Positions 2,094 through 26,766 of a stretch of 35,478 nucleotides of DNA are shown here, piece after piece. Under the pieces are notes generated by a model. That model did no database searches, was not told the origin of the DNA, and worked only from the letters and a program-made list of their open reading frames with translations. Position numbers and translations under genes: made by a program. The stretch comes from a virus: positions 1-35,478 of IMG/VR virus record IMGVR_UViG_3300011118_000016, one strand, 5' to 3'. Within the stretch, counting starts at the first letter, position 1; every line of letters begins with the position of its first letter.

Positions 2094-3092
2094 ATGTCTC
2101 TAACATTAGTTGAGGCAAGCAAATACTCTAATGATATTCTTCAGGTTGGTGTTATTGAGAAGTTGGTTCATAAAGACCCAATTCTTGAGAAACTCCAATT
2201 TAAGGATATCAAGGGTAATGGTCTGACTTATAATGTCGAGAAAACAATGTCCGGTGCCCAGTTCTATGCTGTCGGCGATGTATGGGTTGAATCAACTTCC
2301 GAAGTTGAGCAAGCAACCGCTGTAACCACTATCCTTGGTGGTGATGCCGATGTGGACAACTTCTTGCAGGCTACTCGCTCCGATGTGCAAGACCTGATGA
2401 GTGAGCAGATAAACGACAAGATAAAGGCAATCAAGGATAAGTTCATGACGATGTTCTACTACGGGTGGAACGGAGCAACTCCAGTTGATACCAAGGGGTT
2501 CACGGGGGTTCATGGTCTCATCTATTCAACGGTTGCTGCCTATCCGAATACCGTAACTGATGGGGCAACTGGCAATCCTGGTTCTACCTTTAGCCTGTCA
2601 CAGCTAGAAAAGGCAGTGGATATGGTGAAGAACGGCAATCCTGAGTTAATTGTCATGTCCAAGAATATGCGCCGGCTCATTAACAAATATCTCCGAGGCG
2701 TTGGAGGTATAAGTTATACCGATGCAGGTCAAGGGCGTATTCAGGATTTATTCGGTGTCCCTGTAGCTGTATCTGATTATGTCAGCGACACCGAGGACTG
2801 CACCAAAGATTACGGACCTGCGGCTGGGGTGAATGAGTTCGGGCATGACTACGCCCAGGGAACCCTTTACACTGCGAGCACTTCAACCAGTATCTTTATC
2901 CTTCAATTTGCTCCTAATGCTGTCTGCGGTCTTCAGTCTATGCCTATCACCGTAGATAATATAGGCAAGTTGGAAACCAAGGATGCAGAGAGGGTCAGGA
3001 TAAAGTGGTATCCCAGCTTGATGCTGCAAAACATTCTCACCTGCTCTAAGGTCACGGGCATTGATGCCGTAACACAGGCTGTTGCTGCTTAG
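2094..3092 (+). CDS. major capsid protein, HK97-type fold
   Basis: 332 residues, with GGAAGGAG upstream. The N-terminal arm (LVEASKYSNDILQVGVIEKL) leads into an E-loop-like region and then a spine helix with DLMSEQINDKIKAIKDKFM. Later segments are the usual peripheral and axial elements: SQLEKAVDMV, ELIVMSKNMRRLINKYL, and the closing RIKWYPSLMLQN. The length and order fit the HK97-fold capsid family, here without a fused protease or delta domain, in keeping with the separate scaffold gene just upstream. It forms the icosahedral shell. This is one of the firmest calls in the window. Confidence 0.88.
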   Translation: MSLTLVEASKYSNDILQVGVIEKLVHKDPILEKLQFKDIKGNGLTYNVEKTMSGAQFYAVGDVWVESTSEVEQATAVTTILGGDADVDNFLQATRSDVQDLMSEQINDKIKAIKDKFMTMFYYGWNGATPVDTKGFTGVHGLIYSTVAAYPNTVTDGATGNPGSTFSLSQLEKAVDMVKNGNPELIVMSKNMRRLINKYLRGVGGISYTDAGQGRIQDLFGVPVAVSDYVSDTEDCTKDYGPAAGVNEFGHDYAQGTLYTASTSTSIFILQFAPNAVCGLQSMPITVDNIGKLETKDAERVRIKWYPSLMLQNILTCSKVTGIDAVTQAVAA

Positions 3093-3112
3093 AGGCGGCA
3101 GGCAGGCTCTAG

Positions 3113-3136
3113 ACATCGAGCCGATAAAATCGATGT
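3113..3136 (+). terminator. hairpin after the capsid gene
   Basis: ACATCGA (3113-3119) pairs perfectly with TCGATGT (3130-3136) around a 10-base loop, 20 bases after the capsid stop. There is no T-run. It could protect the 3' end of capsid mRNA or cause partial termination, giving more capsid than downstream message. Confidence 0.45.
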
Positions 3137-3160
3137 CACAAAATAGGAAGGTAAAGTTAA

Positions 3161-4030
3161 ATGGCTTTTACCGATAGAAACCCAAAAACCATTCTACATA
3201 GCTGGGGAAGATTTAAGGCAATGGTGTATGAGGATGTAGTTGTTGGTGACTTGCTGGCAGTTAAAGAACACGCCACTACCGGTTGTTTCCAACTTGCCGA
3301 TGACTCAAATGGTTATGCGGCTGTAGCCATCGCTTGTCAAAATGGTTCTGCATTGGACACTATTTGGATGTGCCTGGCTGCTGAAATGAAGGCACCAGCT
3401 TCAGTTGGAACTGGTGGGGTGGTAACTCAATCATACTTCATTGGCGCCGCTGAAGTTCTGGGTGATGAGCTTTTCCTGGGTGAATCCGGGAAGATTGAGC
3501 ATACCATAGGTACTACAACCAAGCAACATATAGGTTATGCCCTGTCTCGTGACAGAATTATCGTTGTTCCTGGTCATGTGCTGGGCAGTGTTGCTGGAAG
3601 TTTTACCACCCTAGCAGCAAGTGGGGCTACATCATTGAGCGATACTTTGGGAGTTACTGGTATAGCAACCTTTGCGGCTCTCCCTGTCTTTTCCATGGGA
3701 ATTTCCATCCCAGCGAATAAAACGCTGGTAATGGCGGTTACTGACCACTCTGGTGACGATGCAATTATCCCTCTGGGTATGCACACTATGAGCAAAGGTT
3801 CTGCCGGGGCGCACACCTTAGCTGCTCCTACTGCTGGCGCAGTCTGCGCTATCTCAGCTAAGACAGCGCATGCACATGTTGTAACTACTGGTGATGGCAT
3901 TACCTATGACGGGACAAACAACACCGCTACCTTTGGTGGGGCAGTCGGGGATAGCATTGTTCTGATTGGCATTTCAGCTACTTTGTGGGCTGTTCTTGCT
4001 AACAACAATGTAACCCTCAGTAGTGTCTAG
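3161..4030 (+). CDS. head decoration / head fibre protein
   Basis: 289 residues, with GGAAGG upstream. Residues 1-140 form a compact beta-rich domain (VVVGDLLAV, then RDRIIVVPG) like the small capsid decoration proteins of the DUF2190 type, which bind the outside of the shell. Residues 145-190 carry a fibre-like pattern (TTLAASGATSLSDTLGVTG) seen in phage fibre shafts. The rest is an Ala/Thr/Gly-rich beta domain ending in hydrophobic strands. The position straight after the capsid gene supports decoration. The fusion of a decoration base to a fibre-type extension suggests a projection from the capsid surface. Confidence 0.7.
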   Translation: MAFTDRNPKTILHSWGRFKAMVYEDVVVGDLLAVKEHATTGCFQLADDSNGYAAVAIACQNGSALDTIWMCLAAEMKAPASVGTGGVVTQSYFIGAAEVLGDELFLGESGKIEHTIGTTTKQHIGYALSRDRIIVVPGHVLGSVAGSFTTLAASGATSLSDTLGVTGIATFAALPVFSMGISIPANKTLVMAVTDHSGDDAIIPLGMHTMSKGSAGAHTLAAPTAGAVCAISAKTAHAHVVTTGDGITYDGTNNTATFGGAVGDSIVLIGISATLWAVLANNNVTLSSV

Positions 4031-4058
4031 GAAGTGTAGGTTAACTTGCAAGGCTTCT

Positions 4059-4086
4059 GGGGCTGTGCCTTTACCTAAACAGCCCC
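4059..4086 (+). terminator. hairpin after the decoration gene
   Basis: GGGGCTGT (4059-4066) pairs with ACAGCCCC (4079-4086), eight perfect pairs around a 12-base loop. Only TACTTGATT follows, so termination would be partial. Confidence 0.5.
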
Positions 4087-4106
4087 TACTTGATTGAGGA
4101 GCGATA

Positions 4107-4322
4107 ATGGGCAACGAATATGCAACAGAAGATAACGAATTACCTTATGTGCCAGACCTTCATGTTACGGGAACGGTTAAAAGACCAGGTAGTTTAACCT
4201 TCTGGATGTTCAACCCGCCTTATAGCAAACCGTGCAGAATAAGGTGTGGCATCTGTCATAAGCCTATGGATGGCTATAGTCAATGCCCGAATTGCTTCCC
4301 CAATAATAAGGAGGTGGTATGA
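4107..4322 (+). CDS. small zinc-ribbon protein
   Basis: 71 residues, with GAGGAG upstream. Two Cys pairs, CGIC and CPNC, lie about 15 residues apart in the C-terminal half, giving a CxxC-x(n)-CxxC zinc ribbon. The N-terminal part is acidic and Pro-rich. Its stop overlaps the next start by four bases (ATGA), so the two are translationally coupled. Function unknown. Confidence 0.65.
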   Translation: MGNEYATEDNELPYVPDLHVTGTVKRPGSLTFWMFNPPYSKPCRIRCGICHKPMDGYSQCPNCFPNNKEVV

Positions 4323-4507
4323 AGAATATACCAATTTCTCAGTTAAAGCAGATGTCAACTAAAGAGATAAAGGAAGGTCCCAGCTTTAATGTAATAGCTG
4401 ATGGGGAGTTTGCCTTTATTGTGGTTGTCCCTGCCTCAGCAGAAAAGAGGTTCCAATTCCAATCCTTAGCTGATATGGGCAATAAAGCACTAGGATTTGA
4501 AGATTAG
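4319..4507 (+). CDS. small protein of unknown function
   Basis: 62 residues, starting inside the stop of the zinc-ribbon gene, with GGAGG just upstream. The N-terminus reads as a short amphipathic helix (ISQLKQMSTKEIKEG), followed by two hydrophobic strands (FNVIADGEFAFIVVV) and a short C-terminal helix. The shape loosely recalls Phd-type antitoxins, but no toxin partner is present, so I do not assign that role. Confidence 0.55.
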   Translation: MKNIPISQLKQMSTKEIKEGPSFNVIADGEFAFIVVVPASAEKRFQFQSLADMGNKALGFED

Positions 4508-4533
4508 AGGAGTCTTTAAAGGGAGGTGATGTA

Positions 4534-4695
4534 ATGCCTAGTGTAAATGAAAAACAGAAGACTCTCTTTTGCATAGCCCTTTCAATAAAGCGGGGCAAGA
4601 CTTCACCGAGCTACAGCAAAGAGGCAGCGAAGATGGCGGAAGAGATGAGCGAAGAGCAACTGAAAGACTATTGTGAGGGCAAAATAAAGAAGTAG
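4534..4695 (+). CDS. short DUF3008-like phage protein
   Basis: 53 residues with a very strong ribosome site, GGGAGGTGAT, just before the ATG. The sequence MPSVNEKQKTLF and the later pattern KRGK-x-SPSYSKEAAKMAEEM matches the small proteins found in many phages that start MPsxSxKQ and continue with A-x(3)-K-G-E and an alternating A-x-x-M helix (DUF3008-like). Their role is not established; some are virion-associated. The family link is from memory of the pattern. Confidence 0.6.
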   Translation: MPSVNEKQKTLFCIALSIKRGKTSPSYSKEAAKMAEEMSEEQLKDYCEGKIKK

Positions 4696-4756
4696 GCGGT
4701 GAGCTATTGGTGCGCCGACTGTAACTAGACACGAAGGCGGTTAAACGGGGGTAATT

Positions 4757-4807
4757 ATGCTAGTAAAGATACAGCGTAATCAGATACATTGCCTCAAAGA
4801 GGAATAA
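4757..4807 (+). CDS. possible 16-residue leader peptide
   Basis: ATG at 4757 follows GGGGGTAATT and encodes MLVKIQRNQIHCLKEE. The stop lies two bases before the ATG of the next gene, so translation could be coupled. It is too short to judge further, and the upstream 60 bases (4696-4756) hold nothing else I recognise. Confidence 0.25.
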   Translation: MLVKIQRNQIHCLKEE

Positions 4808-4809
4808 AT

Positions 4810-5160
4810 ATGCCAAATCCCATATCTATTGACCCAATAGAGGAAGCAAAAATATTAGCTGGTAGAAGCGCAGTTGAAACTTATAGGATTGCTCACGCCA
4901 AACTCTATGAAGGATGCTGGCATAAGGGAATACCTGAAGAGCATACCCCTCTCCTAAAAGCTATGGTTGGTAGTTTTGAAGCTCAGGGCTTTACTTCTAT
5001 TGAAGCTAGTTTTGAGCCAAAGAAAAATGAGATATTGGCTAAGTTTTGGCTTGCAAGCTACGACCTGAATGTTAAAGAACTTGGCTTTAAAGATATGGAT
5101 GATTTTAATAAGAATGCTACTGAAGTAGACAAAGAAGAACTAGAAGAGATGTGGTTCTAA
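4810..5160 (+). CDS. phage protein of unknown function
   Basis: 116 residues. I chose the ATG at 4810 (AGAGGA upstream) over a TTG at 4789 that has no site. The protein is mainly helical, with IEEAKILAGRSAVETYRIAH then a mixed segment and an acidic C-terminus ending EELEEMWF. No motif is recognised. Its stop overlaps the next start (TAATG), so it belongs to the same translation unit as the Fn3-type protein that follows. Confidence 0.6.
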   Translation: MPNPISIDPIEEAKILAGRSAVETYRIAHAKLYEGCWHKGIPEEHTPLLKAMVGSFEAQGFTSIEASFEPKKNEILAKFWLASYDLNVKELGFKDMDDFNKNATEVDKEELEEMWF

Positions 5161-15586: not shown

Positions 15587-15630
15587 CCCCCGCTCTGCTA
15601 TCTAGGCAGAACGGGGGATTTGTTTTATTT
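15587..15630 (+). terminator. terminator between late genes and integrase
   Basis: CCCCCG (15587-15592) plus TCTGC pair with GCAGA plus CGGGGG (15612-15617), 11 pairs with one mismatch and a 7-base loop, followed by ATTTGTTTTATTTT. It ends plus-strand late transcription and overlaps the last codons of the convergent integrase. Confidence 0.75.
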
Positions 15631-16590
15631 TAGGGACATCCTATCAACCGGGGAGAATGAAGAATGAGACTTAACCGCTTCTTCGCTGTCCACTGTGCTG
15701 GCATATTTTCTGGTCATAGTTAATGTGCTATGACCTAACAATGATTGAACATAGAATATATTAGCCCCATTCCTTATTGCCATTGTGCCGAAAGTATGCC
15801 TGAAGGTATGAGGGCTACAGCGCAATCCTTTGAAGCCTGCCCTCTTTCCCAGCCTCTTTACCATAATCTGTATGCCTCTGGCTCTCATAGGATGCCTCTC
15901 CTCAGTTACCCACAAGCAAGGGTGATTATCCTTCCGCATAAGCAGATAACGGAGTATAGCCTTCTGAGCCTTTTTGCCGATGCCTACTACTCTTCCTTTG
16001 GCACCTTTACCCATAACCTGTATAAACTCTTTTTCAAAGTCTATGTCTTTCATCTGAATATTAGCCAACTCAGACAACCTTAGCCCGGTATCAAGGAATG
16101 TCAGGATTATAGCCATATTCCTATTACCCAGGAAGGTCCCATCATTACACAAGGTAAGCAGGTCTTTTATATGGCTACTGCCAAAAGGCTGAATGACCTT
16201 ATTAGGTACTTTGGGGGAGCGCATAGAAGCCATAGGATTACGGCTCAAGACCCCTTCATTTACCAGCCAGTTAAAAAACCTTTTGACCACACCATGGTAG
16301 TCGTGGACAGAAACAGGATTACATCGCTCTTGGAGCTTCAGGATGAATAAACGAATGTGGCTGGAATTAACATCCTGAGGTTTATAGATTTCTAGCTGAC
16401 CGCAGTAAACAATGAAAGACCCTAGCTTTTGCTCATAATCGCTTAATGTCGCGGGGGACAGTTCATCTACTCGGCAAGATAATAAGAATGACCTTAGCTG
16501 TCCATCGAGGTCTCCTAGAGCAATTATGTGCTCTAGCTCAGATAGGTTTCCTATTTGGTAATTTTGCTTTGTTATGTGCTCTAAAACCAT
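15625..16590 (-). CDS. int: tyrosine site-specific integrase
   Basis: 321 residues. An N-terminal SAM-like core-binding domain (~30-120) precedes the catalytic domain. All tyrosine-recombinase residues are visible: Arg171 (DTGLRLSELA), Lys in the GKGAKGR hairpin, His261 and Arg264 (SPHTFRHTFG), His287 (LLGHSTL) and the nucleophile Tyr296 (TRKYAST). The length matches XerC/D-like phage integrases without a large arm-binding extension. The gene starts 37 bases beyond attP and slightly overlaps the ORF before it. It would catalyse insertion into the tRNA gene and, with a directionality factor not identified here, excision. Confidence 0.92.
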   Translation of the reverse strand: MVLEHITKQNYQIGNLSELEHIIALGDLDGQLRSFLLSCRVDELSPATLSDYEQKLGSFIVYCGQLEIYKPQDVNSSHIRLFILKLQERCNPVSVHDYHGVVKRFFNWLVNEGVLSRNPMASMRSPKVPNKVIQPFGSSHIKDLLTLCNDGTFLGNRNMAIILTFLDTGLRLSELANIQMKDIDFEKEFIQVMGKGAKGRVVGIGKKAQKAILRYLLMRKDNHPCLWVTEERHPMRARGIQIMVKRLGKRAGFKGLRCSPHTFRHTFGTMAIRNGANIFYVQSLLGHSTLTMTRKYASTVDSEEAVKSHSSFSPVDRMSLK

Positions 16591-16796: not shown

Positions 16797-16999
16797 TATC
16801 CGCCTCCGGTATTCCAATCTGCCGGGTCAACAACACGCAACAATTCTTTTACATACCAAGGTGCTGTATCGTAAAACAACCAACAAAGCATGACAAATAC
16901 AGCTAGACCGAAGAGAAGAAGAACAAAACCTTTGACATTATCGTGGTAGTGGAAGAATTTATTAACCTGCTTAATTAAGGAGGATTTTATGACGCTCAC
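16796..16999 (-). CDS. single-span membrane protein in the lysogeny operon
   Basis: 67 residues. Its ATG overlaps the repressor stop by four bases, so it is co-translated with the repressor and should be made in the lysogen. A charged N-terminus with HYHDN precedes one span (GFVLLLFGLAVFVMLCWLF), then a short outer tail (APWYVKELLRVVDPADWNTGGG). Lysogenically expressed small membrane proteins often block superinfection by related phages; that role is an inference from position and topology. Confidence 0.6.
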   Translation of the reverse strand: MSVIKSSLIKQVNKFFHYHDNVKGFVLLLFGLAVFVMLCWLFYDTAPWYVKELLRVVDPADWNTGGG

Positions 17000-17619
17000 T
17001 TCAGTCTCCTGATAACCTCAAGCACCGGGGCTTTGATTAGACAATCCTGGAGCCTAACCATCGCGTCTCCATTTTCCAACCAGGGTTCACCATCAATCAT
17101 TCTTGTACGACCTAACATTCTCCCAGATTTGCATAAGCAAGCCACAATATCCCCCGAATTTATATCACCATCCCTATCAATGACGATTATATCGCCTTCC
17201 TTGATAATAGGCTCAAGGCACATACCCATTACTGGATAGGCTTCAATATTCTTTTTTACCGCTTTGACTCTTGCTAAATAAACATATTCTATCGTGTCCA
17301 TAGGTGACCCAAGATGAAAAGGGAAGTCTTTATATACAGGAACACTGACTGGTGCGGCTAATCTGAGACGGTCTAGTATCTGCTCCGGTGTTTCTGTTGC
17401 TAAACTTTTCTCACCTCTTATCTCCTGATTCAACTGGATAATCGTTAATCCTAAACCTTTAGCAAGAAGCTCAAAGGTTCTTTGGGATGGTATTTTATAG
17501 TGCCCTTTCTCTATGCGTGATATATGCCCTCGACCTAAGCCTGACCTCAAACTTAACTTATCTTGAGTCAAGCCCCTCTCCTCACGCAACCTCTTAATAG
17601 TGTAGCCCCAATTCTCCAC
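16996..17619 (-). CDS. CI/LexA-type prophage repressor with altered peptidase dyad
   Basis: 207 residues, GTG start. Residues 5-62 are an Xre-type HTH (YTIKRLREERGLTQDKLSLR, then GRGHISRIEKG). Residues ~92-205 are an S24/LexA-like domain with VMGMCLEPIIKEGDIIVIDR and GDIVACLC. In active members the motif is G-(D/N)-S-M; here the Ser is Cys134. The Lys that normally follows (VKR) is replaced by LGRTR, and no Ala-Gly cleavage site is obvious in the linker. It probably keeps the dimer fold but does not self-cleave in the usual way. It represses the divergent early promoter. Confidence 0.82.
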   Translation of the reverse strand: MENWGYTIKRLREERGLTQDKLSLRSGLGRGHISRIEKGHYKIPSQRTFELLAKGLGLTIIQLNQEIRGEKSLATETPEQILDRLRLAAPVSVPVYKDFPFHLGSPMDTIEYVYLARVKAVKKNIEAYPVMGMCLEPIIKEGDIIVIDRDGDINSGDIVACLCKSGRMLGRTRMIDGEPWLENGDAMVRLQDCLIKAPVLEVIRRLK

Positions 17620-19692: not shown

Positions 19693-19921
19693 ACATCAAA
19701 GTGCCGGGAGGCTTGGAGGATTAACAACGCTGATGAGGTATGGACGGGAATTCTATTCTACTATTGGGGCTAAAGGGGGGAGACCTAAAGCCACTCAACT
19801 AGGGCGTCAAACAGTTCTGGCAGCAAATTCAAAAGTCGAAGGAGGATGGATACCTAACCGGCTAAGCGAATTAAAGGAACTGTGGAGGCAAAATAAAAAG
19901 GAGGGGATGATTGGGGCTTGA
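19682..19921 (+). CDS. small Gly-Gly motif phage protein
   Basis: About 79 residues from ATG 19682, which overlaps the previous stop; ATGs at 19652 and 19670 are alternatives and none has a strong site. It contains AGRLGGLTTLMRYGREFYST followed by IGAKGGR. This GGxxT-x-x-x-x-G-x-(2,6)-IGxxGG pattern is common in small phage and KGG-type proteins. Function unknown. Confidence 0.55.
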   Translation: MKNKHQSAGRLGGLTTLMRYGREFYSTIGAKGGRPKATQLGRQTVLAANSKVEGGWIPNRLSELKELWRQNKKEGMIGA

Positions 19922-19955
19922 CGGGCACCCATATCATCCCCTGAAAGGAGGAGAA

Positions 19956-20609
19956 ATGACCACGAACAGTAAAGCTAAAATCCACACCGTCTACAAAACA
20001 AAGGATGGGGAAAGAGTTCCTAGCGTCACAACTATACTGGGGATTCTCAACAAGCCTGCATTGCTGGAATGGGCTTGGAAGTGTGGATGTGATGGGCTGG
20101 ACTACAAGGCAATCAGAGACCAAACCGCAGACATAGGTAAGCTGGCTCATTATATGGTTATGTGCCATTTGTTGGAGCAGAAGACTGATACTAGCGAATA
20201 CTCAGCAGAGGATATAGACAAGGCTGAGAACAGTTTCCTCAAGTATCTTGAATGGGAAAAGCAACACGATGTAGAGCCGATACTTGTAGAGTCGGCTTTA
20301 GTATCAGAGAATTACAAGTTTGGTGGGCAGATAGATTGTTACTGCCGGCTAGACGGGTCCCCGACTCTAATAGACTTCAAAACTGGCAAGGCTATATATC
20401 CGGAATACTTTCACCAGTTGGCGGCTTACGAGATGTTGCTATCAGAGAACGGCTATGAAGTAGACCAGTCCCGTATTCTGCGTATTGGTAGAAACGATGA
20501 TGAAGGGTTTGAGGACAGGTTTATTGGCAAATTAGATAAGCATTGGGAGCTTTTCCTAAATTGCCAGAGAGTCTATGAATTGCAGAAGGAATTAAGGAGG
20601 GATAAATAA
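19956..20609 (+). CDS. RecB/Cas4-like PD-(D/E)XK exonuclease
   Basis: 217 residues from the ATG at 19956, with AAGGAGGAG upstream; the longer reading from 19911 has no site. Motifs in order: PSVTTILGILNKP (22-34), GKLAH (61-65), GGQID with Asp127, DFKTG with Asp140 and Lys142, and QLAAYEM (154-160). This is the full catalytic set of the RecB-family nuclease fold. It is adjacent to the annealing-protein candidate, the standard two-gene phage recombination pair in which the exonuclease makes 3' single-stranded ends. Confidence 0.82.
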   Translation: MTTNSKAKIHTVYKTKDGERVPSVTTILGILNKPALLEWAWKCGCDGLDYKAIRDQTADIGKLAHYMVMCHLLEQKTDTSEYSAEDIDKAENSFLKYLEWEKQHDVEPILVESALVSENYKFGGQIDCYCRLDGSPTLIDFKTGKAIYPEYFHQLAAYEMLLSENGYEVDQSRILRIGRNDDEGFEDRFIGKLDKHWELFLNCQRVYELQKELRRDK

Positions 20610-21469
20610 TGGATAATAAAGCATTGACTTTGCCTGATGAAGCTACTTTTACCAATGACCTGATGGCTATCAACAAGTTCCAGAATATAGTCCGTGCCAA
20701 TATGGTTGAAGGGCATGATTTTGGGGTTATTCCTGGTACAAAGAAACCGACACTTTTGAAACCCGGAGCGGAGAAGATAGCCAAACTGCTAGGATTATCA
20801 GACCTATACGAGATTATTGATAGACAGGAAGATTGGGATAAGCCATTCTTCCGCTATCTAATCAAATGCCAGTTAGTATCTGTTTCTCATGGTGTAGTTA
20901 TAGCTGAAGGCTTGGGTGAGTGCAACAGCCTTGAGAGTAAGTATCGGTGGAGGTGGGTATTTCCTTCCGATGTGCCTGAAAACCTAGAAAAAGGGAAGCT
21001 ACTTAGCCGAGAGATAAATACTAAGAGAGGTAAGGCTAAACAGTACCGATTAGAAAACGAGGATATATACAGCCAAGTCAACACTATTCTCAAGATGGCT
21101 AAGAAGAGAGCTTTGGTTGACGCCTCTCTTTCGGCTGGTAGATTGTCTGATGTTTTCACCCAAGACGTTGAGGATATGGGGCATACAACTGGTGATATTA
21201 TCTCGGGGGAAGAAGATGCAAAAGCTACACCACCAAATTTAGCCACCGAAGCGCAGCTCAAAAAGATTTTCGCCAGTGGCAAGCAGATGGGTTATCAGGA
21301 CGAGGATATAAAGGGAATAATCAAGACAAAGTGGGGGGTGGAGAGCACCAAAGAGTTATCCAAGTCCCAGGCATCAGAACTTATCCAGATGATTGAGAAG
21401 GGAGAGGGTGTAGAGTCGGCAGAAGCAAAATCGCCTTTCGATGAGGCAAAGAGCGAAAGTAAAGAATAG
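20609..21469 (+). CDS. putative single-strand annealing protein
   Basis: 286 residues, its start overlapping the exonuclease stop by one base. The N-terminal ~180 residues include GHDFGVIPGTKKPTLLKPGA, EKIAKLLGL and later a motif AKKRALVDASL, a pattern shared by a broad set of phage recombination proteins. The C-terminus (TEAQLKKIFASGKQMG, then SKSQASELIQMIEKG) is a small helical domain often attached to annealing proteins, and the tail is acidic. Coupling to the exonuclease supports a strand-annealing role. A related DNA-binding role is possible. Confidence 0.6.
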   Translation: MDNKALTLPDEATFTNDLMAINKFQNIVRANMVEGHDFGVIPGTKKPTLLKPGAEKIAKLLGLSDLYEIIDRQEDWDKPFFRYLIKCQLVSVSHGVVIAEGLGECNSLESKYRWRWVFPSDVPENLEKGKLLSREINTKRGKAKQYRLENEDIYSQVNTILKMAKKRALVDASLSAGRLSDVFTQDVEDMGHTTGDIISGEEDAKATPPNLATEAQLKKIFASGKQMGYQDEDIKGIIKTKWGVESTKELSKSQASELIQMIEKGEGVESAEAKSPFDEAKSESKE

Positions 21470-21535: not shown

Positions 21536-22144
21536 TTGGCAAGGGGCACACCTAAAAGAAGATGGATAAAATTATACCCGATAGATTGTTTGGAGGGTAG
21601 TATTCGCTACCAACTGGAGGCGGATGAGAGAGGCGTATGGTATGACTTGTTACAATTCTCAGCGCTTTGTGCCACCCCTGGATTTATTTCCGACAAAGAT
21701 GGTAGACCATACCCTCACAGTTTTATTGCCAACAGGTTGAACATAAGTGTTGACTTACTGGAAAGAACTATTGATAAGTGCAAAGAAGAAGGCAGAATAT
21801 CCGAAAATACCACTGGGATTAAAATATCAAATTGGGCTTTCTACCAGAGCGAATATGACAGGCAGAAGCCCTATCGTCAGAAAAAGAAAGATAGTGAAGG
21901 CAATATGTTAATAGCCGGCCATTACTTTAACAAAGATTGGCTAGAGGTATTAAAAGAGGAATTCAATGATATAGACTTTGCTACTGAACTAAAGAGATTT
22001 GCCGACTACTGGACAGATGGAGGCAGGAACTTAAAGAATCCCAAACTAGCTTTGCGTAACTGGATGACGAAGGCTAGGGATATAAAACAAAAGAGCGAAC
22101 CAGAGTCAGATGATAAGCCAATACAAGGGCTGAAGATAAGATGA
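21536..22144 (+). CDS. replisome organiser / replication initiation protein
   Basis: 202 residues. The TTG start at 21536 has AAGGAGA upstream. Residues 1-100 look like a winged-helix N-domain (RRWIKLYPIDCLEGSIRYQL, then RGVWYDLLQFSALC and FIANRLNI). Residues ~145-185 (FADYWTDGGRNLKNPKLALR followed by NWMTKA) match the DnaD/replisome-organiser C-terminal motif YW-x(n)-W. It precedes a DnaC-like loader, as in many phage replication modules. It should bind the phage origin and recruit the loader and host helicase. Confidence 0.72.
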   Translation: MARGTPKRRWIKLYPIDCLEGSIRYQLEADERGVWYDLLQFSALCATPGFISDKDGRPYPHSFIANRLNISVDLLERTIDKCKEEGRISENTTGIKISNWAFYQSEYDRQKPYRQKKKDSEGNMLIAGHYFNKDWLEVLKEEFNDIDFATELKRFADYWTDGGRNLKNPKLALRNWMTKARDIKQKSEPESDDKPIQGLKIR

Positions 22145-22212
22145 AGCCATATTATCAAAGAGATAGAAGAGAAATATGGGGTTATGAAGAAATATCAGAT
22201 AATATATGCTGA
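22141..22212 (+). pseudogene. remnant start of a DNA methyltransferase (MKPYY type)
   Basis: A 23-residue ORF whose ATG overlaps the previous stop. It begins MKPYYQRDRREIWG. MKPYY(E/Q) followed by a GITIYHGD-type motif is a common opening of phage DNA N-methyltransferases, but here the frame ends with no catalytic motif. A similar relic, MKPYYEQALG, occurs at 25257. Reading it as a relic is an inference. Confidence 0.4.
22181..22212 (+). repeat. 32-base direct repeat, copy 1 (left flank of slot A)
   Basis: Identical over 32 bases to 25291-25322. It starts GTTATGAAGAAATATCAGAT and ends TATGCTGA. Each copy lies just before the ribosome site of a different accessory gene. Confidence 0.9.
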
Positions 22213-22255
22213 CCAGAATAAAAGGAGGGGGATATGGAAGCATACCATTTCTTAA
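22184..22255 (+). pseudogene. remnant start of an MT-A70-type methyltransferase
   Basis: A 23-residue ORF beginning MKKYQIIYADQNKRRG. MT-A70 adenine methyltransferases typically open (K)KYQIIYADPPW, where DPPW is catalytic. Here the match runs exactly to the Asp and then diverges. The start also lies in the 32-base repeat shared with 25291. It ends inside the next gene. Interpreted as the scar of a deleted or replaced gene. Confidence 0.45.
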
Positions 22256-22956
22256 AGGACAATATGAGAGGGGGGTATGGACGGGAGAAGGCTTGGAAGA
22301 TTGGTGAGGAGCGGGAGGTTAAGGGTGAACTTAAAATGTGTGAGTGGGGATACCACGCTAGTCCTAGTTTCTATGACGCATTACCCTATGCTAAAGGGAG
22401 TATAGCTTGTATAGTGGAGTTGTCAGGTGAAATAATTAAGGCTACAGATAAATATATAGGCAGAAAGCGCAAGCTCATCAAAGCGGTTAATGCTGAAAAG
22501 GTATTAAGAACTTGGGGATGCGACTGTGCTGAAAGAGCATTAAGGAAAGCCAAAGTTAAAGATGAACGAAGCTGGAACGCTATTAAAGTAGCCCGATTAT
22601 ACAATGAGGACAAGGCTACTAAAAAGGAACTAGCTGCTGCTTGGGCTGCTGCTTGGGCTGCTTGGGCTGCTACTAGGGCTGTTTCGGATGCTACTTCGGC
22701 TGCTGCTTGGGCTGCTGCTAGGGCTGCTGCTAGGGCTGCTTGGGCTGCTAGGGCTACTGCTGAGGCTGTTGCTAGGGCTGCTGCTAGGGCTGCTTGGGCT
22801 GCTGCTTGGGCTGCTGCTGAGGCTGCTGCTGAGGCTGCTGCTGAGGTTGCTGCTGAGGCTGCTAGGGCTGCTGCTTGGGCTGCTGCTGAGGCTGCTGAAA
22901 CCCAGTGGCAGAGAAAGCGTCTTAATAAACGTATGAAGGAACTGATGGAGCAATGA
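22234..22956 (+). CDS. DUF7666-like protein with Ala-Ala-Trp/Arg/Glu repeats
   Basis: 240 residues, with AGGAGGGGG upstream. The N-terminal ~110 residues (EAYHFLKDNMRGGYGREKAW, then KMCEWGYHAS, and VELSGEIIKA) fit the small domain found in many phages with pattern FK-x-x-n-C-x-GFHA (DUF7666-like). From ~131 to 225 the sequence is almost all Ala with Trp, Arg or Glu every third or fourth residue, which would form one long amphipathic helix. The C-terminus is basic (QRKRLNKRMKELMEQ). Function unknown. It is the payload of slot A. Confidence 0.65.
   Translation: MEAYHFLKDNMRGGYGREKAWKIGEEREVKGELKMCEWGYHASPSFYDALPYAKGSIACIVELSGEIIKATDKYIGRKRKLIKAVNAEKVLRTWGCDCAERALRKAKVKDERSWNAIKVARLYNEDKATKKELAAAWAAAWAAWAATRAVSDATSAAAWAAARAAARAAWAARATAEAVARAAARAAWAAAWAAAEAAAEAAAEVAAEAARAAAWAAAEAAETQWQRKRLNKRMKELMEQ
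22632..22905 (+). repeat. GCT-rich coding tandem repeat
   Basis: About 270 bases built from GCTGCT followed by TGG, AGG or GAG and GCT. Every Ala uses GCT and the variable codon changes mainly at its first base. Such DNA is prone to slippage, so copy number may vary. It also opens long false frames on both strands. Confidence 0.9.
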
Positions 22957-22977
22957 AGTGGAGAGTGATATAGAGTT
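22950..22977 (+). repeat. 28-base direct repeat, copy 1 (right flank of slot A)
   Basis: Matches 25616-25643 with a single difference (AAGTGG versus AAGTAG). It covers the last codon and stop of the payload gene (CAATGA) and the spacer before the next gene, and continues GAGAGTGATATAGAGTT. Confidence 0.9.
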
Positions 22978-23005
22978 ATAGGCAGATGGTTATGGAGCTA
23001 AAGGT

Positions 23006-23926
23006 ATGACAACAGAAGAACGAGGTGGAAAGATAGAGCGGATAGGGCGAGGCACTCTTAGTAAAGGGCTTTATAATATTATGAGTTCTACCCAGCTTGA
23101 GTCGGAATATGGCACTTGCCCTGATTGCGGCAGAGAGAATATAGAGTTCAAAAGGTGGAGCCTGGGCGATGGGTCTATCAAGAAAATAGGGAATTGCCCT
23201 GATTGCCAAAAGAAAGTAGAGAAGCAACTAGAGCAGCAGAAAGAAGTTGAAAGGGGACTAGCCATAGCCAAAAAAAGAAGGGAATGGAGGGAGAGTTGCA
23301 ATATACCTCCTAAGTTTATGAAAGAACAGTTTGATACTTTTGAGCAGGGGCGACAACAGCAAGCCTACGATAAATGCTATGAGTATGCGGATAATTTCCC
23401 ACGAACTAACTCCAGAGGCTATCATTCCTTAGTTTTGTTTTCATATAAATCGTGGGGTACAGGGAAGACGCACCTGACTTGTTCCATAGCTCATCATATT
23501 ATAAATAGATGGGATAGAGAAGAAACTTCATACCCGGTATATTGCATCAGTGAGTATGACATATTCGCATCAATACAGGAGACATTCAATTACTCAATCG
23601 AAGAGAAGTATTGCAGGGAGAGTGAGGCAGATATTATCAGGCGGCTTATATCCGTCCCGTTGCTTATTATTGACGATGTAGGGAAGGAAAAGAGATCCGA
23701 CAAGAAACCTGATGCTAAGTTTTTTGTTCAGCGGACTTTGTTTAAGATTATTGATGGTAGATATAAGGCGGAAAGACCAATAGTGATAACAGCCAATTTA
23801 AGCCCTACACAGTTAAAGAATTATCTGGGTGCCGGGGGTGTAGATGATGCCTCTTTTGACAGGCTTTGGGAGATGACGAAGGGTGAGTTTTTTAATATGG
23901 AGGGGGAGAGCTACAGAAGGAGATGA
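23006..23926 (+). CDS. DnaC-like helicase loader ATPase
   Basis: 306 residues. An N-terminal zinc motif has C38/C41 and C64/C67 (CPDC twice), followed by a basic coiled segment. The AAA+ core has Walker A GTGKT at 151-155 (WGTGKTHL; the usual first Gly is missing, SYKSWGTGKT), Walker B LLIIDDVG (219-226), sensor 1 VITANLS and a final arginine region DRLWEM. This is the DnaC/IstB type of loader. With the replisome organiser it would place the host replicative helicase on phage DNA. Confidence 0.82.
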   Translation: MTTEERGGKIERIGRGTLSKGLYNIMSSTQLESEYGTCPDCGRENIEFKRWSLGDGSIKKIGNCPDCQKKVEKQLEQQKEVERGLAIAKKRREWRESCNIPPKFMKEQFDTFEQGRQQQAYDKCYEYADNFPRTNSRGYHSLVLFSYKSWGTGKTHLTCSIAHHIINRWDREETSYPVYCISEYDIFASIQETFNYSIEEKYCRESEADIIRRLISVPLLIIDDVGKEKRSDKKPDAKFFVQRTLFKIIDGRYKAERPIVITANLSPTQLKNYLGAGGVDDASFDRLWEMTKGEFFNMEGESYRRR

Positions 23927-24828
23927 AATACCAAAAACCTGTTCGGTTGGATAACCCTACACCTGAAGTATTGAGAGATTGTATCAAGAATGGCATTTGT
24001 TGGTGGTGCGGAAGAGGCGGATGGAAAGCGTTAGGTATCCATACATCTCGTGCTCATGGAATAACAGCTAACGAGCTAAGACAAATCGCTGGTTTGTTCA
24101 AACATATACCGACTTGTTCAATTGAACTCTCAAATGATATGTCGTTAAGAACAAAGCAACAATTAAAAAACGGGATTAGTAAGTTACCCAAACAAAAAGG
24201 TCGAGGCTACACGAAGGATTTTAGCGAAGCTGGTAGGAAATACCAAGATGAAGTTAGAACCGCCATAATATTAAGTAACCGACCAAAGGCGATGGCAAAG
24301 TTAGCAGAATTAAGGCTTGAAGGTCAACATTTTGGGAAGCCAGTCAAGCCTCATCTTTGCCCAGTGTGCGGGAAACCAATGCCTTATGCACATCCAATAA
24401 CTTGTTCTCCAGAGTGCAGAAAGATTATAAGGCAAAATACCTGTTTAGAATCAAAGGTAAAAATTAAAATATTGATGGATAATGACCCAGTATATAAGCA
24501 AAGAGTAAAAGACAATATGAGCAAAGGGTCTAAAAAAAGCTATGCTGAGGGCAAGCTACCTAGTAATCCGCCAAAGCCTCATTTTTGTAGAATATGTGGA
24601 ACTTTAATACCTAAAGCTACACCAAGATTATGTTCCGCAGAATGTCGCCATAAGGCTTTTAGAGAAGCACAAATTTTGGCTACATCAAATAGAAACCTTA
24701 AAATTCCTATATCAGAACGAAGCATTATTGCAAGACGATATAATTCTGGCGAACCTGGTGCTGTAATTGCTAGGGAATATGGTATTAGTGCAAGGTATGT
24801 GAGGCTAATAGGGAATAATAAAAGATGA
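23923..24828 (+). CDS. MucR-like zinc-finger protein with two extra zinc knuckles and HTH
   Basis: 301 residues, ATGA overlap with the loader. Residues 26-60 follow the MucR/Ros pattern: C26, C29 (CWWC), H40 and H45, then HGITANELRQIAGL. Two further Cys4 motifs follow: CPVCGKPMPYAHPITCSPEC and CRICGTLIPKATPRLCSAEC, which look duplicated. The last 40 residues (ISERSIIARRYNSG, then AREYGISARYVRLIG) form an HTH. This is a multi-module DNA- or RNA-binding protein, perhaps a regulator. An HNH nuclease is not supported because the His-Asn-His core is not visible. Confidence 0.6.
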   Translation: MKYQKPVRLDNPTPEVLRDCIKNGICWWCGRGGWKALGIHTSRAHGITANELRQIAGLFKHIPTCSIELSNDMSLRTKQQLKNGISKLPKQKGRGYTKDFSEAGRKYQDEVRTAIILSNRPKAMAKLAELRLEGQHFGKPVKPHLCPVCGKPMPYAHPITCSPECRKIIRQNTCLESKVKIKILMDNDPVYKQRVKDNMSKGSKKSYAEGKLPSNPPKPHFCRICGTLIPKATPRLCSAECRHKAFREAQILATSNRNLKIPISERSIIARRYNSGEPGAVIAREYGISARYVRLIGNNKR

Positions 24829-24836
24829 TAACAGAG

Positions 24837-25013
24837 ATGAAAGCTAAAGATACAGTGATACCACTAGAATATTCTGTACTTGATACATTTCATTGCAAGG
24901 GTATACATGATAATAAAATCTTGAGAGCATTGCACGCCCAAGCTGAAATTTCCTTCAAGGCAGGGTATGTAGAAGGAAATAAAGATACTAGTGATATAGC
25001 AGTGGAGGGGTAG
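24837..25013 (+). CDS. small MKAKDTV protein, copy 1
   Basis: 58 residues from the ATG at 24837; a start at 24825 is also open and overlaps the previous gene. It starts MKAKDTV, and its C-terminal half has ALHAQAEISFKAGYVEG. The gene at 26536 shares the same first 23 bases and the AQA-x-ISF-x-x-G pattern, so the two are related. No function known. Confidence 0.55.
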   Translation: MKAKDTVIPLEYSVLDTFHCKGIHDNKILRALHAQAEISFKAGYVEGNKDTSDIAVEG

Positions 25014-25015
25014 TC

Positions 25016-25252
25016 ATGAATCTTACTCAATGTATTAAAGCTGGCAGTCATGAAGAGCGACCAGGCTGGTTGATTAAGTTTGATTATGACCTAAAGGCTA
25101 TTCAATCGCTGAAAGAGAGCGTGCCGTATACCGAAAGGGAATGGAGACCGGATACTTATGAGTGGTGGGTTAGTGAATCTTATAACGATGTTCTTAAAAA
25201 GCTATTCGGCAACTTTGAGGCAATGGTATTTTTGCAAGGAAGGTTATTTTAG
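25016..25252 (+). CDS. small HARP-like protein
   Basis: 78 residues, with GGAGGGG upstream. The pattern FDYDLKAIQSLKESVPYTER, then WRPDTYEWWVSESY, matches the short domain seen at the front of some SNF2-type helicases and in phage proteins (aromatic-x-Y-x-x-x-x-V-x-x-IK-x-x-x-P-x-R-x-W-x-x-x-x-x-W-x-V). That domain can bind branched DNA in SMARCAL1. No helicase is attached here. Confidence 0.55.
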   Translation: MNLTQCIKAGSHEERPGWLIKFDYDLKAIQSLKESVPYTEREWRPDTYEWWVSESYNDVLKKLFGNFEAMVFLQGRLF

Positions 25253-25256
25253 GTAG

Positions 25257-25289
25257 ATGAAGCCTTATTATGAGCAAGCGCTGGGGTAA
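25257..25289 (+). pseudogene. second remnant of an MKPYY-type methyltransferase start
   Basis: A ten-codon ORF, MKPYYEQALG, placed in the same relation to the next relic as at 22141. It is too short to be functional as an enzyme. A relic by comparison with the first copy. Confidence 0.4.
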
Positions 25290-25290
25290 A

Positions 25291-25322
25291 GTTATGAAGA
25301 AATATCAGATAATATATGCTGA
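25291..25322 (+). repeat. 32-base direct repeat, copy 2 (left flank of slot B)
   Basis: Identical to 22181-22212, 3110 bases away. Followed at once by the payload gene at 25335. Confidence 0.9.
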
Positions 25323-25338
25323 AAGGAGAAGGGGATGA
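25294..25338 (+). pseudogene. second remnant of an MT-A70-type start
   Basis: A 14-residue ORF, MKKYQIIYAERRRG, within the 32-base repeat. The MT-A70-like opening is kept up to YA, and the catalytic DPPW is missing. The sequence past the repeat provides the ribosome site of the DUF4326 gene (AAGGAGAAGGGG). Confidence 0.45.
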
Positions 25339-25622
25339 GAGTATTAAACAGGAGAACTGATGATATTCCAGAGGATGCCGTCTATGTGGGTAGACCCAGC
25401 AAGTGGGGTAATCCATTTAAGATGAATGACCCTTTGTTGCCAGCAGGAATTAGTAGGCTGGAAAAACGCAGGCTTGTTATAGAGGAATACAAGGGTTGGA
25501 TTTTAAGGCAAGAGGATTTATTGCGACAGTTGTCAGAACTAAGGGGTAAAGACTTAGTCTGTTGGTGTTCACCATTACCTTGCCACGCAGATGTGCTATT
25601 ACAACTAGCCAATAAGCAATGA
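25335..25622 (+). CDS. DUF4326 family protein
   Basis: 95 residues, with AAGGAGAAGGGG upstream. It contains VYVGRPSKWGNPF (22-34), RRLVIEEYKGWIL and LRGKDLVCWCSPLPCHADVL (the first part near 69-85), the defining motifs of DUF4326. The Cys/His cluster CWC-x(4)-CH may bind metal. These proteins occur widely in phages; the function is not known. It is the payload of slot B, between the 32-base and 28-base repeats. Confidence 0.85.
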   Translation: MRVLNRRTDDIPEDAVYVGRPSKWGNPFKMNDPLLPAGISRLEKRRLVIEEYKGWILRQEDLLRQLSELRGKDLVCWCSPLPCHADVLLQLANKQ

Positions 25623-25643
25623 AGTAGAGAGTGATATAGAGTT
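25616..25643 (+). repeat. 28-base direct repeat, copy 2 (right flank of slot B)
   Basis: One mismatch to 22950-22977. It spans the end of the DUF4326 gene (CAATGA) and the spacer before the nuclease gene. Confidence 0.9.
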
Positions 25644-25649
25644 TAAGGG

Positions 25650-25937
25650 ATGACTACCGAGAAACAATTTGAAAGCCAGGTGAAAGATTTAGCCAAGATA
25701 TTTAGATGGAAGTATTATCATACTTGGCGCTCCATTCATTCACCAGCTGGATTCCCTGATTGTGTGATGGTAAGACCAGATAGAATAATATTTGCCGAAT
25801 TGAAATCTGAAAAGGGGCAAGTAAGCGAGGCTCAGCAGGAATGGCTTGATAAGCTAGAAGCTACCGGCAAATGCGAAGTATATCTCTGGAGACCTGGACA
25901 GATAGAAGAGATAGCCGAGATATTAAGTTGGAAATAG
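25650..25937 (+). CDS. VRR-NUC domain nuclease
   Basis: 95 residues, a stand-alone domain. Motifs: EKQFESQVKDLAKIFRW with Glu8, HTWRSIHSPAGFPDCVMVR with Asp37, then FAELKSEKG with Glu50 and Lys52, and Gln62 in EAQQEWLDKL. This is the VRR-NUC form of the PD-(D/E)XK fold; stand-alone phage versions are thought to cleave branched DNA such as Holliday junctions. It starts MTTE, as does the loader after slot A. Confidence 0.85.
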   Translation: MTTEKQFESQVKDLAKIFRWKYYHTWRSIHSPAGFPDCVMVRPDRIIFAELKSEKGQVSEAQQEWLDKLEATGKCEVYLWRPGQIEEIAEILSWK

Positions 25938-26465: not shown

Positions 26466-26546
26466 ATGAAAATAGAATGGTATATTGTTTGTTGTAAAGG
26501 GTGGTGTGTATTAAAAGCTAAACTGGAGGGGTTAGATGAAAGCTAA
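26466..26546 (+). CDS. possible 26-residue peptide
   Basis: The ATG follows AGAGAAG. The peptide MKIEWYIVCCKGWCVLKAKL is hydrophobic with three Cys. It overlaps the next gene start by 11 bases. It could be a leader peptide that couples translation. Weak evidence. Confidence 0.25.
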   Translation: MKIEWYIVCCKGWCVLKAKLEGLDES

Positions 26547-26766
26547 AGATACAGTGATGAGTGATGAGGACTTAAGTGAAGTAGTGCAAAGGCAGACAGG
26601 GAAGTGGGGGATTGTAAGTAAAGATTTTATAATGGATATAGCTAGGGTTATAGCAAACGCTCAAGCCCCAATATCTTTTAGGGAGGGTGTAAGGGAAGCG
26701 GCAAAGTGGGCACCATACTACCCTAAACTCATAATCCGGTATTTAGATATAAAAAGGGAGGTTTGA
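26536..26766 (+). CDS. small MKAKDTV protein, copy 2
   Basis: 76 residues, with GGAGGGG upstream. It starts with the same 23 bases as the gene at 24837 and then diverges. The later segment IANAQAPISFREGVREAAKW corresponds to AQAEISFKAGYVEG there. The N-terminal region looks like a small helical unit (DEDLSEVVQRQTGKWGI). Unknown function. Confidence 0.6.
   Translation: MKAKDTVMSDEDLSEVVQRQTGKWGIVSKDFIMDIARVIANAQAPISFREGVREAAKWAPYYPKLIIRYLDIKREV

Follow-up and report, generated by a model that had tools for sequence, protein, structure and literature searches.

How the mosaicism of phage genomes comes to follow gene borders has been asked for a long time, and the border sequences have been hard to find according to PMC3029335. 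In the boundary-sequence model cited there (Susskind and Botstein 1978; Clark et al. 2001, HK620), short conserved sequences flank different modules and are proposed as places of homologous recombination. Here we describe two slots with such borders in the IMG/VR virus record IMGVR_UViG_3300011118_000016, of which the whole stretch of 35,478 nucleotides (nt) was analysed and is called the window. Slots A and B hold different genes between the same two short repeats, which correspond to the beginning and the end of an MT-A70 adenine methyltransferase gene. Unlike the borders of the boundary-sequence model, those found here can be traced to a single gene family, are shared by phages with little other DNA in common, occur in one case as an array and provide signals for start and stop. 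We consider it probable that hollowed MT-A70 genes are cassette slots whose cargo is swapped by general recombination and whose borders are kept as expression parts. The boundary-sequence idea is old; the methyltransferase origin and the leader and stop design appear to be new. No description of MT-A70 ends as cassette borders was found in the open-licence literature, which is weak evidence of novelty because the search covered that literature only.

In T4-type phages, Arbiol et al. reportedly described in 2010 small mobile regulatory cassettes around hypervariable genes, which are said to consist of early promoters with stem-loops and to be shuffled, as proposed, by homologous recombination. 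Unlike such cassettes, the elements studied here contain no promoter or terminator match and no significant fold. Integron cassettes, phage-borne ones included, also form arrays of single genes with a repeated element in between, as outlined in part of PMC9892861. Bicistronic leaders, in the portions of PMC12548453 and PMC4833913 that treat them, consist of a short leader open reading frame (ORF) that contains the Shine-Dalgarno sequence of the next gene and whose stop overlaps the next start. The leader of the slots differs from bicistronic designs in that it is natural, derived from the start of a methyltransferase gene and common to phages with different cargo. Work on relaxed recombination by phage Rad52-like recombinases (excerpts of PMC3945230 and PMC2327257) indicates that short, diverged homology suffices; the flanks considered in these excerpts are natural homology, whereas here a recurrent border element is involved.

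Two slots with the same ends

The following features make up the two slots and the genes next to them.

22141..22183, plus strand: MKPYY start in slot A and a short sequence ending TGGGGTT
22181..22212, plus strand: 5' element of slot A, 5' end of the MT-A70 gene (MKKYQIIYAD), perfect 32-nt repeat
22184..22255, plus strand: leader ORF of slot A, MKKYQIIYADQNKRRGIWKHTIS and stop, with AAAAGGAGG upstream of the payload start; overlaps the payload by 22 nt
22234..22956, plus strand: payload A, DUF7666 protein with an alanine-rich repeat (Pfam E 5.8e-11)
22949..22977, plus strand: 3' element of slot A, 3' end of the MT-A70 gene (SNEVESDIEL), with the payload stop TGA inside
23006..23926, plus strand: DnaC-like helicase loader, MTTE start, next after slot A
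25257..25289, plus strand: ORF MKPYYEQALG and stop in slot B, ending CTGGGGTAA
25291..25322, plus strand: 5' element of slot B, 5' end of the MT-A70 gene, perfect 32-nt repeat
25294..25338, plus strand: leader ORF of slot B, MKKYQIIYAERRRG and stop, holding AAAGGAG; its stop overlaps the payload start (ATGA)
25335..25622, plus strand: payload B, DUF4326 protein (Pfam E 2.5e-25)
25615..25643, plus strand: 3' element of slot B, 3' end of the MT-A70 gene (SNEVESDIEF), with the payload stop inside
25650..25937, plus strand: VRR-NUC nuclease gene, MTTE start, next after slot B

The two copies of the 32-nt repeat, located at 22181-22212 and 25291-25322 by a repeat finder run on the window, are identical; by our own estimate (L^2/2/4^32) an exact 32-mer pair is expected by chance in 35 kb with a probability of about 1e-11. 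The 3' repeat, AGCAATGAAGTrGAGAGTGATATAGAGTT, occupies 22949-22977 and 25615-25643; its copies can be taken as 29 nt that differ at a single position or, in a longer version, as 34 nt at 91% (family D8). Upstream of both payloads, at 22141 and 25257, the sequence ATGAAGCC(A/T)TATTAT is found. The element pattern matched twice in the window and not at all in its reversed control. A simple segment duplication was rejected because, according to the repeat finder, the slots are alike only at short repeats.

A preliminary description of this DNA had proposed two slots with the same order of repeats and different payloads, and sequence and Pfam bear this out, as does the MTTE start of both following genes (23006, 25650). 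Its MKKYQIIYA relic does lie inside a perfect 32-base repeat and can now be specified as the first codons of an MT-A70 methyltransferase, while its 28-base repeat over the payload stop turned out to have 29 nt and to encode NEVESDIE in a frame other than that of the payload. The MKPYY relics stand at the head of both slots as described and are separate short ORFs. That of slot A continues through the 32-nt repeat in another frame, and this stretch is possibly an emptied neighbouring cassette. The end of that of slot B, CTGGGGTAA, looks by eye like the shortened MT-A70 3' element of L130 (G and L numbers are labels of the viral contig records or loci compared with the window). We take MKPYY to be the start of another methyltransferase family, of the PF01555 type; a similar start was seen once, KPYFQDDEVVIYHADC in L043. 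Overlooked in the preliminary description were the nature of the repeats, which are MT-A70 gene ends, and the ribosome-binding site carried by the leader ORF.

Payload A contains a long alanine-rich repeat (22630-22920, with Trp, Glu and Arg) in 9- and 12-nt steps. Between the slots, at 23923-24828, lies an HNH-like gene (PHROG 1271) with repeated cysteine motifs.

Origin of the ends

Translated, the 32-base repeat reads MKKYQIIYAD, which is how MT-A70 adenine methyltransferases begin, and the 28-29-base repeat, in another frame, reads SNEVESDIE(L/F), the end of the same proteins. A degenerate scan with the peptide of the 32-nt repeat returned at least 118 stretches. Most of these are ORFs of about 170-200 amino acids (aa) that start with KKYQIIYADPPW or similar and often end in WGNEVESDI(EL). 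At least 82 distinct intact proteins were recognized by their start pattern among the loci collected, 26 of the 82 with the exact WGNEVESDI, and all three intact ORFs tested match Pfam MT-A70 (PF05063) over the whole profile (1-172). The window itself has no PF05063 match. Judging from the sequence, both slots keep about the first 10 and about the last 9 codons of an MT-A70 gene, and the catalytic interior is replaced by another gene.

Two loci show further arrangements of MT-A70 ends. L044 (4092-5195) has two tandem intact MT-A70 genes with an ATGA overlap and a repeated tail, GACTTCACTAAGGTGTGCGA, an arrangement from which a joined end/start border could arise. In L103 (about 4277-4525 in reverse-strand coordinates) an ORF of about 82 aa begins and ends like MT-A70 in a single frame, with unrelated sequence in between, and the same contig additionally carries an intact MT-A70 gene.

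Gene ends could also be neutral scars, left where MT-A70 genes decay by internal deletion and other genes land by illegitimate recombination, the ends being functionless and unused. L069, in which the two ends are joined after deletion of the interior and no cargo is present, fits this explanation, as do L041, a shortened MT-A70 gene with no 3' relic found within 2.5 kb, and 10 short ORFs outside the window (9 distinct) that have an MT-A70 start and are not cut by a contig end. Yet 13 of the 18 records searched, among which G010/G011 and G019/G020 are near-duplicates and which may be fragments, are without the MT-A70 domain and retain at least one end. Moreover, the DNA of the elements is more uniform than in a sample of intact genes. 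In relic sets hand-picked from the scans, 6 of 11 relics but none of the 22 intact sample genes have the exact 3' core AATGAAGTAGAGAGTGATATA (p = 0.0004), or 4 of 8 with one relic per record (p = 0.0026), and mean pairwise differences amount to 1.2 among relics and 2.8 among intact genes. The alanine codon GCT is used in all 8 relic records of the first set versus 40 of 82 intact genes (p = 0.006) and in 10 of 11 relic records after addition of L034, L069 and L111 (p = 0.0095). A shortened element lacking one ATA codon is common to L122, L130, L142-L145 and their near-duplicates. One leader junction, AAAGGAGAAGGGGATGAGA, precedes three different cargoes, in slot B, L136 and L132, which likewise argues against unused remains. 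Together with the array and the shared cassette described below, these findings make neutral scars an unlikely explanation.

Recurrence with other cargo

Both ends, in full, shortened or diverged form, surround other genes in 13 further distinct viral contigs (G001, G003, G005, G006, G007, G008, G010, G012, G014, G017, G019, L075 and L103), a tally made by hand from several scans that leaves out near-identical second contigs. These hold at least 15 different cargo ORFs, also counted by hand and with an incomplete all-versus-all comparison of the cargo. The repeats thus occur outside this genome, and different genomes hold different payloads between them, so that neither of the two refutations named in the preliminary description, which had proposed boundary homology for swapping accessory genes with start and stop signals left intact, came true; varied payloads, the allelic pair and the payload shared by two contigs reported below all support that proposal. 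The cargo product is ASCH-like in L064 (PHROG 3193, with Pfam ASCH below cut-off), an N6-type methyltransferase in L142, similar to a radical SAM family in L123 (PHROG 9298, with Pfam below cut-off) and an HNH endonuclease in L144; some other cargo proteins had no family match. In-frame fusion of cargo to the ends was seen at both ends in L130 (3562-4023) and at the 3' end in L003, L123 and L138.

With intact genes left out, 63 relic matches were listed versus 1 in the reversed control (1.33 million bases), a list that includes duplicates of the same phage and comes from loci preselected for such patterns. A second element scan, again of preselected loci, gave 57 matches versus none in its reversed control (0.47 million bases). 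The carriers have few genes in common: ORFs similar to those of the window, which served as query, numbered 9 in G001, 3 each in G010 and G007 and 0-1 in the other eight, for which comparison in the reverse direction gave up to 4. Identities listed in this comparison were 24-56%.

The elements are repeated as an array in L130, where seven ORFs (2853-4822) are accompanied by six 5' elements, five of which directly follow a 3' element or part of one. Such repetition also speaks against neutral scars. The array leads into a VRR-NUC gene, whose window homologue follows slot B, and the VRR-NUC homologue of G010 lies directly behind a diverged 3' element that closes a cassette array. Matches to a border of L130 in 28 phage records were short and partial, with a best E of about 1, and were taken as noise.

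The carriers are metagenome contigs by name and the repeat is short, so chimeric assembly at a common 30-nt repeat has to be considered. Seven structures, however, have a mismatch-free copy in another contig that belongs to a different data set, namely L130/L131 (1787 nt), L064/L126, L123/L125, L144/L145, L034/L089 (5' end only), L132/L133 and L122/L139 (comparable over 639 nt only); the data-set names differ in these pairs, and sampling sites could be common. In addition, slots A and B stand on the same contig. The probability that the slots are assembly chimeras appears close to negligible.

Probable exchange at the borders

An allelic pair is formed by L075, with an intact MT-A70 gene, and the related contig G014, with cargo at the same place. 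Their left flanks are 97% identical over 64 nt, and this identity ends exactly at GCTGA. The upstream gene bodies differ, and just their last ~13 codons match. At the 3' ends 36 nt are 83% identical, and the contigs rejoin beyond one further, unrelated gene. Past position 7000 of L075 the two contigs share 15 matching blocks, 13 of them shorter than 120 nt; in a comparison without a random control, each of the 15 touches a called gene boundary in one of the genomes or both, and 13 do so in both. Short border blocks between differing gene bodies were noted at L075 7750-7791, 9593-9625 and 11252-11290 and at their G014 counterparts, and gene ends reading QTKLKDWGIK and KALIEKVRELFE are among these blocks.

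Exchange is also suggested by L132 and L142, which share the same cargo over 756 nt at 75% DNA identity, a match that begins directly behind the start codon and reaches into the 3' element. Otherwise these loci share one 26-nt match only, and their flanks are unrelated. This comes near to a cassette with both elements moving between phages without other homology, for which neutral scars would not account. L130 and L144 have a 101-aa cargo in common (53% identity), whose end lies inside the 3' element in one locus and inside the shortened form of that element in the other. The leader of slot B matches the leader of G014/L136 over 57 nt at 89%.

In 14 records, 162 short blocks are shared between non-homologous genes, and 95 of these fall on called boundaries in both genomes, compared with a mean of 3.3 and a maximum of 11 in 1000 random controls; this test is partly circular because its records were picked for the elements, its blocks are not independent, its genes were called by length alone and several contigs were covered in part only. 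Blocks within homologous genes lie on boundaries in both genomes in 3 of 20 cases. Gene borders marked by short conserved DNA and enclosing non-homologous genes are found here, and exchange at these borders seems probable from the comparison of the contigs.

The pattern is wider than MT-A70, because several of the L075/G014 blocks belong to other boundary elements. One such element occurs twice in the window.

24835..24859, plus strand: second boundary element (start of an MKAKDTV... gene), copy 1
26534..26558, plus strand: second boundary element, copy 2

This 25-nt repeat is perfect, is also present in G017 and L124 and resembles gene starts common to L075 and G014.

Leader and stop signals

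The 5' element is usually a leader ORF of 10-30 codons that contains the ribosome-binding site of the cargo. A Shine-Dalgarno-like stretch precedes the cargo start in 18 of 23 leaders (loose motif list, no control), and 20 of 23 have an in-frame start codon. With cargo starts chosen by hand, the leader stop lies -8 to +5 nt from the cargo start in 18 of 23 leaders and at -4 or -1 in 11 (the spacing of L130a being -4). In slot B the leader stop overlaps the cargo start (ATGA), as in bicistronic leaders. This arrangement suggests that the leader may couple translation of the cargo to its own.

At the other end, an ORF of at least 40 aa terminates in or at 25 of the 32 3' elements, with all three frames used; for random positions in the same loci the count averaged 4.0 and did not exceed 10 of 32 in 300 draws. 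As read from its sequence, the 3' element is a stop in all three frames. Rfam and tRNA searches gave no matches.

Leader spacing, Shine-Dalgarno placement and the use of stops in three frames would also be expected if selection retained the ends purely as translation parts and recombination was incidental. That explanation leaves unaccounted for the DNA identity that ends exactly at the element in the allelic pair, the same ends in phages with little else in common and the 3 of 23 leaders without an in-frame start. We consider it very unlikely.

Candidate recombination genes and proposed mechanism

The window has the following candidate recombination genes.

19911..20609, plus strand: PD-(D/E)XK exonuclease (PHROG 298)
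20609..21469, plus strand: PHROG 10048 protein, probably the annealing candidate of the preliminary description, not confirmed as such

The exonuclease attributed to this phage is upheld, the annealing protein remains a candidate, and that the two could drive the exchange is a suggestion of the preliminary description. Relatives of the 20609-21469 product were found in 16 phage records, all 15 of those listed being annotated as 'hypothetical protein', and none in the other 17 carrier records; its single-sequence fold gave an unusable model (mean pLDDT 45.7). On the minus strand, a phage integrase and an S24-type repressor are encoded at 15625-16590 and 16996-17619, so the phage looks temperate.

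The L130 array with its repeated borders and the presence of a tyrosine-type phage integrase in the window could point to a dedicated site-specific recombinase that uses the elements as sites in the manner of integrons. The integrase matches the general families Phage_integrase and PHROG 1. In contrast to integrons, neither of the attC core motifs GTTRRRY and RYYYAAC occurs in the four element regions of the window, and the RNA fold of five element sequences, calculated with RNA parameters, was no better than that of shuffles (z-scores 0.26 to 1.17). Furthermore, the elements derive from coding sequence. A site-specific system is thus highly improbable.

General recombination, by phage or host functions, would fit better because the elements are about 30 bp long and none of the three recombinase families searched for is common to the carriers. 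The Red and RecA pathways have a homology minimum of about 30 bp in the section of PMC2327257 that deals with it, and phage Rad52-like recombinases tolerate short, diverged homology according to a passage of PMC3945230. With 25-60 nt, the elements are at about the minimum length quoted for Red and RecA. We propose that an MT-A70 gene would be hollowed in such a way that its ends stay and its catalytic interior gives way to an unrelated cargo gene, this being the direction of replacement that we infer. The ends would then travel as border elements, in many cases with a ribosome-binding site joined to the 5' end on its inner side, and annealing of the Red/RecT type or host RecA would exchange the content between them when a co-infecting phage offers an intact MT-A70 gene or a different cassette. 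The 5' end would act as a short leader ORF with its stop usually at the cargo start, and the 3' end as an all-frame stop leading into the next gene. Selection would presumably keep the borders because they also work as start and stop parts of expression.

Several observations weigh against hollowed MT-A70 genes as exchangeable slots. The comparison of contigs contains no observed recombination event, and none of three recombinase families is common to the 18 records (RecT in 2, AAA_24 in 2, ERF in none). No close relative of the window was found in these searches: its helicase loader led to none in viral contigs or among 20 other records searched, and the window region had no match in 50,697 phage records. 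Two element pattern scans of genome contigs gave 0 matches. Regarding the element DNA, the intact MT-A70-like ORF of L137, outside the sample, has the exact 3' core, and the relic L111 has GCA instead of GCT. In the boundary test, 67 of the 162 blocks lie off a boundary in one or both genomes. As to the expression parts, 5 of 23 leaders fall outside -8 to +5 and only the 11 mentioned stand at -4 or -1, a spacing that alone proves little because -4 is the commonest gene spacing in prokaryotes as given in part of PMC12548453. The leader of slot A overlaps its cargo by 22 nt and thus agrees only partly with a bicistronic leader. Translation of the leaders of L034, L064b and L124 is disfavoured because they are the ones without an in-frame start codon, and in 7 of the 32 3' elements no ORF terminates.

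Implications

We tentatively suggest, as a possibility somewhat short of an even chance, that a group of uncultivated phages shares a 'gene shell' standard in which MT-A70 ends, leader and all-frame stop serve as interchangeable docking borders. If so, any cargo that gains such a shell could enter every MT-A70 locus or slot through ordinary recombination, in exchange for what lies there, and would be expressed at once. This would amount to an integron-like cassette economy without a dedicated integrase, and other shells (MKAKDTV..., ...LKDWGI) would be used likewise. Since the borders described here are explicit, of known origin and recurrent and carry start and stop signals, border-driven exchange of cargo becomes directly testable. 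Accessory phage genes, among them those of DUF7666 and DUF4326 found here, can also be searched for by means of the elements.

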